A stretch of DNA of 40,099 bases, taken from Eubacteriaceae bacterium (lineage in GTDB: Bacteria; Bacillota; Clostridia; Eubacteriales; Garciellaceae). The translations under genes and the position numbers were made by a program. The notes beneath the pieces were generated by a model that was not told the DNA's origin, did no database searches, and saw only the letters and a program-made list of their open reading frames with translations. Shown here one piece after another: positions 12,786 to 33,978 of this stretch (position 1 is its first letter; every line of letters starts with the position of its first letter). The DNA lies in the NCBI GenBank assembly GCA_012838085.1, contig DUPX01000084.1, forward strand, positions 1-40,099, read 5' to 3'.

Positions 12786-14186
12786 ATGCATATGGAGGCC
12801 CTAGTTTCTAAGATAAGAAATATAAAGATTTTATTGACAGTACTTATTCTTATTTTTACTTTTTTACTTATTTTCACATACTTAAGTATAATTGTATCTA
12901 GAGATATTATCTACCCAAATATAAGAGTAAGGGGAATAAATGTCGGGGAATTAACTATAGAACAAGGAAAGGAGAAATTGAATAAGGAATTAGGAGAAAT
13001 AATAAATAAAGATAAACTTATATTAGCTCTTGATAAAAGAAATTGGGAATATACCTTTAAAGAATTAGGGGTAGAAGTTGATATAGAAAAATCCATTAAA
13101 AGTGCATATAAACGGGGAAAAGAAGGAAATATCCTCAATAAAATAAAGTTATATATTTTTTTATATAAAAATGGAGAGGATATTCCCCTTCAAGTAGATA
13201 TAAATAATAACCAATTAAGAAGGGTGATTGATGAATTAGCTATAGAGATAAGGGAGGAGCCTGTAAACGGAAAAATTGAATATAAGGAAGGTAGCTTTAT
13301 AATTACTCCAGAAAGGAAAGGTATTTCCTTAGATAAAGAGGCTACAGAAAAACTTATAATAGAGGGAATCAAAAGTTTTTCAAAGGAAAGCATAATTATG
13401 CCTATTAGGGTATCGGGCCCAAGGATAACTGAAGCTAGTTTAAGAAGGATAAAGGAAATTTTAGCTGGATTTTCAACAAAGTTTAATTTAAATCAGAAAA
13501 ATAGGGTATCTAATTTAAAAATTGCTGCAGATATGATAAATGGCAAGGTTCTTTTGCCTGGGGAAATATTTTCAGTATATGAAACCATAGGACCAGTGAC
13601 AAAGGATAATGGCTATAAAGCTGCACCAGTAATTATTAATGGCCAATTAAAGGATGGTGTTGGAGGAGGGGTTTGTCAAATAGCAACTAATATCTACAAT
13701 GCTGCTATAAGATCAAATTTGGAGATAGTAGAAAGAAGACATCATGGATTTCCAGTAAGCTATGTAACAATAGGACAGGATGCGACTATAGCAGGAGACT
13801 GGATAGATTTGAAATTTAAAAACACATTGGATTCTCCTATTTTTATTGAAATGTACTTAAGTGGAGACACTCTTGTAACAAATATATATGGAGAAAAAAG
13901 AGGAAATAAAATTGAATTAAAATCAGAAATAATAAGTGAGATACTTCCTAAGACAATATATAAAAAAGATAATAGTAAATATACAGATTATAAAAAGGTA
14001 GAAAAGGAATCCAAAAAAGGATATAAGGTAAATGTATATAAGTTAACCTATGCTAATGGCAATATAATAAAAAAGGAACTATTACATCATGATTTTTACA
14101 AACCTGTAAATAGGATAATTGTTATAGGCACTAAGGAAAGGAATAATTCCATAAAGGCTAATAAAACTAGTGAAACACATTATTAA
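12786..14186 (+). CDS. VanW family protein with N-terminal TM and peptidoglycan-binding-like region
   Basis: LLPGEIFSVYETIGPVTKDNGYKAAPVIINGQLKDGVGGGVCQIATNIYNAAIRSNLEIVERRHHGFPVSYV. Confidence 0.92.
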   Translation: MHMEALVSKIRNIKILLTVLILIFTFLLIFTYLSIIVSRDIIYPNIRVRGINVGELTIEQGKEKLNKELGEIINKDKLILALDKRNWEYTFKELGVEVDIEKSIKSAYKRGKEGNILNKIKLYIFLYKNGEDIPLQVDINNNQLRRVIDELAIEIREEPVNGKIEYKEGSFIITPERKGISLDKEATEKLIIEGIKSFSKESIIMPIRVSGPRITEASLRRIKEILAGFSTKFNLNQKNRVSNLKIAADMINGKVLLPGEIFSVYETIGPVTKDNGYKAAPVIINGQLKDGVGGGVCQIATNIYNAAIRSNLEIVERRHHGFPVSYVTIGQDATIAGDWIDLKFKNTLDSPIFIEMYLSGDTLVTNIYGEKRGNKIELKSEIISEILPKTIYKKDNSKYTDYKKVEKESKKGYKVNVYKLTYANGNIIKKELLHHDFYKPVNRIIVIGTKERNNSIKANKTSETHY

Positions 14187-14780: not shown

Positions 14781-14809
14781 TTAAGGCATAGTGAAATACT
14801 ATGCCTTAA
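14781..14809. terminator. Bidirectional terminator between convergent genes
   Basis: TTAAGGCATAGT-gaaat-ACTATGCCTTAA perfect 12-bp stem. Confidence 0.75.
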
Positions 14810-14812
14810 TCA

Positions 14813-15316
14813 TTAAACTTGCTCAAATCGTTTCATTTGGTTAGTTAAAATACTTGTTAATGGTTTTATAAGGGTGAGGGTTATTATATAGTTTGTAGTA
14901 CCATGGACAATATCCCAGGGGATACCCCTAACCCAATATGTTAAACCGTAAGCCCATCCATAAAAGAAGGATTCCACAATGGAAAAATAAATTCCAAAGG
15001 TTAAACCAAAAATCCCAGCTATAGTGGCATATATATATTCTGAATTAAACTTCTTGCTAATATTAGCGGTAGCAAATATTAGCAGAGGCCAAAGTATATA
15101 ATATCCTAAAATCCAAGTGGAAAAGCCATATAAGAAGGTTTCAGTTGTGACGAATACAATAGATATTAAAATACTACGTCTAAAACCTAATGAAAGGGTG
15201 TATATCATAAATAAGAGGGTTACAATTTCCACATTGGGTATAACACTTAAAGCTAGTTTCCCACCAGTAACAATTGCACTAAATAGCCCAATAAGGACAA
15301 TATCTCGTATTTTCAA
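14813..15316 (-). CDS. ECF transporter S component-like membrane protein (cobalamin-linked by riboswitch context)
   Basis: About 5-6 TM helices, compact 167 aa, ECF S-like organisation; downstream of DUF4430-like gene and cobalamin riboswitch. Confidence 0.8.
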   Translation of the reverse strand: MKIRDIVLIGLFSAIVTGGKLALSVIPNVEIVTLLFMIYTLSLGFRRSILISIVFVTTETFLYGFSTWILGYYILWPLLIFATANISKKFNSEYIYATIAGIFGLTFGIYFSIVESFFYGWAYGLTYWVRGIPWDIVHGTTNYIITLTLIKPLTSILTNQMKRFEQV

Positions 15317-15319
15317 GAA

Positions 15320-15718
15320 CTAAAACTCTCTTAATTCTAATATATATTTATCTTTGTCTGCTAAGGGAATTTCATCAACTCCAGTCATAGAATCTTCATT
15401 ATTAATTAAAATATGAAAATATTCACTTGCAGGATTGGCGGTATATCCCATTAAACCGGTAACCATATTACCCAAACTTGTTTCCTCAAAACTAGCTTTT
15501 AATGCATCTTCTTTTTCCTTCATCAATTCGTACAAAAATTCCTGGTCTGATTTATAAGTAAAGGTTTCATTAATATTTTGAGAATTTATTATTATTTGTA
15601 TAGTTACTTCTTTTAAACCCTCCACACCCTTTGGTGCTAAAAATGTGTTATATCCAAAATAAAGGATTATACCTACTATTAAAATTAAAAGTATAGATAA
15701 TAGTTTTTTGTTTTTCAT
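15320..15718 (-). CDS. DUF4430/transcobalamin-C-terminal-like membrane-anchored protein
   Basis: N-terminal hydrophobic anchor, then about 100 aa ending YFHILINNEDSMTGVDEIPLADKDKYILELREF, resembling DUF4430; gggaggt RBS. Confidence 0.75.
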   Translation of the reverse strand: MKNKKLLSILLILIVGIILYFGYNTFLAPKGVEGLKEVTIQIIINSQNINETFTYKSDQEFLYELMKEKEDALKASFEETSLGNMVTGLMGYTANPASEYFHILINNEDSMTGVDEIPLADKDKYILELREF

Positions 15719-15740
15719 TATTAACCTCCCTAATTTTTTT

Positions 15741-15777
15741 TAAAAACCAAAAACTCCTTTCACCAATAGAAAGGAGC
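15741..15777 (-). terminator. Intrinsic terminator in riboswitch expression platform
   Basis: Minus strand CTCCTTT-ctattggtg-AAAGGAGTTTTTGGTTTTT just upstream of the DUF4430-like start. Confidence 0.8.
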
Positions 15778-15809
15778 CAATACAAATTGCAATTTTATTT
15801 AACACCCCC

Positions 15810-15980
15810 TCATTACCTGTGAAGCCATGGTGTTTTAGAATAGGCAGGTCTTCCGGCTTAACACATATTATAGGTTTAAACCTTCCCAGTTTCCCAGTGG
15901 CATTATTAAACCTTTGATGTTTTACGGCGGCAGGACCGCACAGGATTTTCACCTGTTTCCCTTTTAATGTAATATACAGC
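15810..15980 (-). ncRNA. Cobalamin (B12) riboswitch aptamer
   Basis: Minus strand: GGGAAACAGGTGAAAATCCTGTGCGGTCCTGCCGCCGTAA, B12-box GCCACTGGGAAACTGGGAAGG, AAGCCGGAAGACCTGCC. Confidence 0.96.
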
Positions 15981-33623: not shown

Positions 33624-33978
33624 GGGGGCGTACTGGTTTCGACGGGGGTGTTGAAGCAAGAGTAGCGAGTAGTGGATTCTGGGGCCACTATAAAACCTGG
33701 AGCTTAAATATAAACGCTAAAAACGATAATTTAGCTTTAGCAGCTTAGAAAGCTGCTAACGTTCTACTAATCATTCCCGCATGATTAGATAGGGCGCCGA
33801 CTTAGCGGGGACCTGCTTACCCAAAGCTTTGAGGGAAAGTAGAATAGATGAAGCTAGCGTAGCCTGAATCCTGTTGGTTGGAGTCAGGTGAGGCGAATCT
33901 AAAAAGAACCAACTGCACTCGGAGAAGCTCTAGTGGATATGCTTTCGGACAGGGGTTCAACTCCCCTCGCCTCCACCA
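33624..33978 (+). ncRNA. ssrA: Transfer-messenger RNA (tmRNA)
   Basis: GGGGGCGTACTGGTTTCGACGGGGGT 5' end, tag ORF ending ALAA-TAG, 3' end GGTTCAACTCCCCTCGCCTCCACCA pairing with 5' end. Confidence 0.97.

Follow-up and report, generated by a model that had tools for sequence, protein, structure and literature searches.

ECF importers are usually described as acting without an extracytoplasmic binding protein. On the transporter side, the closest described system is ECF-CbrT of Lactobacillus delbrueckii (PDB 6fnp), which binds and imports both cobalamin and cobinamide. CbrT and the ECF module transport vitamin B12 with an apparent KM of 2.1 nM, in liposomes and in Escherichia coli, without a DUF4430-like partner, and substrate-free CbrT is unstable (PMC5997447). 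On the side of B12 capture, the isolated beta domain of human transcobalamin binds cyanocobalamin and cobinamide, with an affinity below that of the whole protein, and joins the alpha domain in a cobalamin-dependent manner (PMC5599065). Bacterial DUF4430 proteins have appeared in this context as annotation: in Lacticaseibacillus rhamnosus, the name 'Additional lipoprotein component of putative cobalamin ECF transporter' has been given to LRHMDP2_2713, and the ribonucleotide reductase gene rtpR has the DUF4430 gene LGG_02295 in its vicinity (PMC9963975). The portions of the DUF4430-naming literature that were consulted yielded no account of the function of the bacterial proteins.

The locus described here, from an anaerobic bacterium, lies in a window, i.e. 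the whole stretch of DNA that was analysed, of 40,099 nucleotides. Its minus strand carries a cobalamin riboswitch, an intrinsic terminator, a DUF4430 gene and an ECF S component gene, in this order (Table 1). The same layout had been proposed in an earlier sequence-only reading, and is now confirmed by cmscan, the terminator scan and the open reading frames. The S reading frame begins 3 bases past the DUF4430 stop codon, and its TTG start matches the starts in relatives. Both flanking genes are on the plus strand: a convergent gene of the YbjQ family lies downstream, and a divergent gene for a SpoU-type methylase upstream. The unit therefore consists of two genes. According to the same reading, nothing else precedes a bidirectional terminator. 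The S gene is indeed the last minus-strand gene before convergent YbjQ, and a perfect 12-bp hairpin is real; the terminator part of the claim fared less well, since the hairpin lacks an adjoining U-tract in both orientations and went uncalled in the terminator scan. A weak bidirectional terminator is a possible role for it. Elsewhere in the window, a VanW-like protein with PG_binding_4 and G5 domains is encoded at 12786-14186, and a tmRNA gene (RF00023, 198 bits) at 33624-33978.

Table 1. Features of the riboswitch-DUF4430-S unit in the window, and an adenosyltransferase gene at a related locus.
Feature	Position	Strand	Basis
Cobalamin riboswitch aptamer, RF00174	15826..15999	(-)	cmscan, 98.4 bits, E 1.5e-23, model positions 1-189
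Probable P13 hairpin, part of the putative expression platform	15801..15834	(-)	MFE fold; inference
Intrinsic terminator of the riboswitch leader	15752..15778	(-)	terminator scan
Membrane-anchored DUF4430 protein with transcobalamin beta-domain fold, 132 aa, ATG start	15320..15718	(-)	
CbrT-like ECF S component, 167 aa, TTG start	14813..15316	(-)	phmmer, profile, S-component fold
Perfect 12-bp hairpin in the gap separating the S gene from convergent YbjQ	14781..14809	unassigned	read by eye
Short PduO-like adenosyltransferase gene in the riboswitch/DUF4430 gap of a same-family genome	L004:2444-2968		

The aptamer is a full-length match to RF00174, and its cmscan score far exceeds the gathering score (98.4 versus 31.5 bits), so that the Infernal comparison proposed with the sequence-only reading bears out the riboswitch. 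It reaches 19 bases past the end which that reading had given to the unit, and is the sole RF00174 match in the whole 1.70 Mb genome. The P13 hairpin, with arms AACACC/GGUGUU, is present in the MFE fold, and its loop L13 (UUCAC, 15823-15819) is complementary, as read from the sequence, to GUGAA in L5 (15952-15948). The leader terminator has a 10-pair stem and a T-rich tail; in a fold excluding the aptamer, its 5′ arm pairs alternatively with AAUGAGGGGG (about 15814-15805). Of 38 leaders, the window included, 32 have a perfect-stem terminator downstream of the aptamer, against a shuffle mean of 0.25. Less favourably, the stability of the leader RNA fold is not above that of shuffles (z -0.41). 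From these elements we infer ligand-dependent control of the downstream genes, as well as the direction of the switch. At low cobalamin, AAUGAGGGGG would base-pair with the terminator's 5′ arm, resulting in read-through and synthesis of both proteins. At high cobalamin, the aptamer would close, L5 would pair with L13 and P13 would form, masking some of the GGGGG stretch; the terminator would then fold, transcription would stop, and both genes would be off.

Pfam and NCBIfam contain no family model matching the window S protein, and its homology therefore rests on comparison with the PDB. There, chain A of 6fnp is the only significant relative by sequence (phmmer, E 5.5e-12), and a profile built from 17 relatives retrieves 6fnp (E 1.6e-19) and no other match. 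The AlphaFold2 model (pLDDT 94.3) is that of a helical S component, with PanT, RibU and ThiT as nearest folds (probability near 1, TM about 0.55-0.7, E-values weak at 0.08 and above). The fold search thus supports the predicted assignment as an S component, and the sequence search the more specific description as CbrT-like. The matches to 6fnp place the ECF S protein of the sequence-only reading in the CbrT (vitamin B12) group and not in a family for another substrate. Distant S-like matches, of about 22-26% identity, were also encountered inside open frames of 800-960 aa (G018, G052, G107, G153, G198, G240, G276 and others), which perhaps represent fusions of an S component with further parts of an ECF transporter.

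The DUF4430 protein of the window scores 22.0 bits against PF14478, just below the cut-off of 23.8, and the family is matched at E<=0.001 by 11 of the 12 members of the alignment of its orthologues (best 6.6e-12). A PDB search by sequence with the DUF4430 profile recovers 3u7z (E 7.9e-29) and haptocorrin (E 0.0056). In the predicted structure (pLDDT 90.8), residues 3-27 form a single N-terminal helix, accompanied by a beta domain, and 3u7z is the best structural match (E 6.8e-9). At E<=0.001, the 19 PDB structure matches are confined to 3u7z, transcobalamin, haptocorrin and intrinsic factor, and include 5np4, the isolated transcobalamin beta domain with bound cyanocobalamin. The likeness to the C-terminal domain of transcobalamin noticed at the outset is thus borne out by fold. 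Surface anchoring, also claimed then, agrees with the prediction of one N-terminal membrane anchor. No cysteine of a lipobox stands behind the N-terminal helix, and the window protein is therefore predicted to be attached through a transmembrane segment; likewise, 73 of 77 relatives from named genomes have a plain transmembrane anchor and no lipobox cysteine. This is the one DUF4430 protein of the genome. At three other loci (L054, 1926-2996; L065; L085), the DUF4430 protein upstream of the S gene is about 356 aa long, and that of L054 comprises three tandem DUF4430-like units, an arrangement which suggests multivalent capture.

Of 291 genomes sampled across the class, 72 had a match to the S protein. 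Among 31 related loci retrieved from this sample and from a family search, a DUF4430 protein adjoins the S gene in 26, and a cobalamin riboswitch lies inside the 1.5-kb flanks in 12. A genome scan seeded by a closer alignment of 9 S sequences yielded 80 homologous loci in named genomes. DUF4430 is directly upstream of the S gene in 77 of these, and a same-strand cobalamin riboswitch lies upstream in 62 (18, 19, 14 and 11 in four batches). The neighbourhood survey suggested along with the sequence-only reading thus shows a pair that is recurrently B12-regulated. Of the three loci without DUF4430, L050 starts near a contig end, and the other two (L117 and L124) have CbrT-like S genes with neither DUF4430 nor riboswitch; the S gene of L117 is preceded by HlyD/FtsX genes and a TetR gene, and followed by a gene for glycerate kinase. 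Larger clusters also occur. The operon of a same-family genome reads riboswitch, PduO-type adenosyltransferase, DUF4430 and S (Table 1), and an Enterococcus durans plasmid clusters genes for a DUF4430 lipoprotein, PduO, the large subunit of ribonucleotide reductase and the S protein, with lipoprotein and S protein both annotated 'cobalamin ECF transporter'.

The genome itself (98% complete) encodes one EcfT, whose gene lies next to EcfA genes, truA and rplM. The vicinity of truA and rplM is the usual site of the shared group II ECF module, and the one shared EcfAA'T module found here corresponds to the EcfAT module on which the earlier interpretation had relied. Enzymes linked to B12 include MetH, methylmalonyl-CoA mutase, MeaB and B12-binding radical SAM proteins, and a CobA-type corrinoid adenosyltransferase is present; neither CobS nor PduO was found in the genome. 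With B12 enzymes present and CobS absent, the organism uses B12 but probably cannot complete it, and would thus need, and probably has, corrinoid import. Four full-length FecCD/BtuC-like permeases are also encoded, none with a cobalamin riboswitch, and one of them could provide a second B12 route.

The aptamer and terminator, the families and modelled folds of the two proteins, the recurrence of the pair and the shared module lead us to consider it very likely that the pair constitutes a vitamin B12 (cobalamin/cobinamide) salvage operon, with capture by DUF4430, hand-off to S and import by EcfAA'T. The DUF4430 protein would be tethered by its one N-terminal helix to the external side of the membrane, and its transcobalamin-beta-like domain would bind corrinoid outside the cell. 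The CbrT-like S component, for which B12 would likewise be the ligand, would receive the corrinoid from DUF4430 and dock on the single EcfA-EcfA'-EcfT module, where ATP would drive the corrinoid inward. The literature search found no binding or transport report for any DUF4430-CbrT pair. Because CbrT and the ECF module transport B12 alone, the DUF4430 partner is not strictly required. A bolder proposal, which we offer tentatively and regard as doubtful, is that of a two-sided cobalamin clamp, in which the corrinoid would bind the beta-like domain first and then bridge to an S component replacing the transcobalamin alpha domain; the ECF B12 importers of many Bacillota would thus have a dedicated capture domain homologous to the animal carriers.

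The function of CbrT with the ECF module alone in vitro also fits a DUF4430 protein that is a structural or assembly partner of S, be it a stabiliser or an aid to EcfT docking, and has no corrinoid binding of its own. Since substrate-free CbrT is unstable, a stabiliser would make sense, and the window clade reads EYF where other DUF4430 members read YW or WW. The fold matches, however, are specifically to B12-binding domains, and three tandem domains as in L054 are more readily explained by ligand capture, so that we regard a purely structural role as unlikely.

Two further readings concern the substrate. Salvage of incomplete or foreign corrinoids (cobinamide, other cobamides), with DUF4430 selecting the form, would be in keeping with the varied cobamides of anaerobic communities and with the binding of cobinamide by both CbrT and the transcobalamin beta domain. 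In this genome, however, the absence of CobS would block the usual completion of cobinamide, and the enzymes require complete cobamides; a pair dedicated to corrinoids other than B12 thus appears quite improbable. The S component might even carry another substrate, e.g. cobalt, with the riboswitch sensing B12 merely as end product. Some cobalt transporters are under cobalamin riboswitches, such as cbiMNQO in Clostridioides difficile, and the depositors of 3u7z described it as a putative metal-binding protein. Against this, the sole solved sequence relative of the S component is CbrT and not a cobalt S component, and imported cobalt would not yield B12 without CobS, which makes this reading very improbable indeed.

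If the B12 salvage operon is as proposed, many Bacillota, including gut Lachnospiraceae and enterococci, would capture B12 via a domain homologous to the human one, which would bear on corrinoid competition and on how the B12 carriers of animals arose. The existing CbrT assays suit testing of the pair.

Compared with known systems, the locus shares with ECF-CbrT of L. delbrueckii a homologous S component and a shared group II ECF module. The window S protein is only distantly related to CbrT, however, and the work on that complex involved no accessory binding protein; in L. delbrueckii, the CbrT gene has cbrS as a neighbour. BtuF of BtuCDF also provides extracytoplasmic B12 capture for an ATP-driven importer, but belongs to another protein family and serves another type of transporter. 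The fold of the window DUF4430 protein is common to the beta domain (PF14478) of transcobalamin, intrinsic factor and haptocorrin; unlike these animal proteins, it has no second (alpha) domain, whose place the S component may take. The nearest solved relative of the DUF4430 domain, RUMGNA_00854 (PDB 3u7z), differs in its deposition label, which refers to metal binding. LRHMDP2_2713 and the DUF4430 lipoproteins of Enterococcus resemble the window protein in the genetic tie of DUF4430 to a cobalamin ECF S component and to B12-dependent enzymes; the Enterococcus proteins that were read have a lipobox, whereas the window protein has a transmembrane anchor. With a cobalamin ECF lipoprotein component already recorded in the annotations of L. 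rhamnosus (PMC9963975) and Enterococcus, the pairing is less novel than the sequence-only reading had supposed, and the notion that it is unprecedented was rejected. The locus is an addition to a known, little-characterised pairing, with a transmembrane in place of a lipid anchor.
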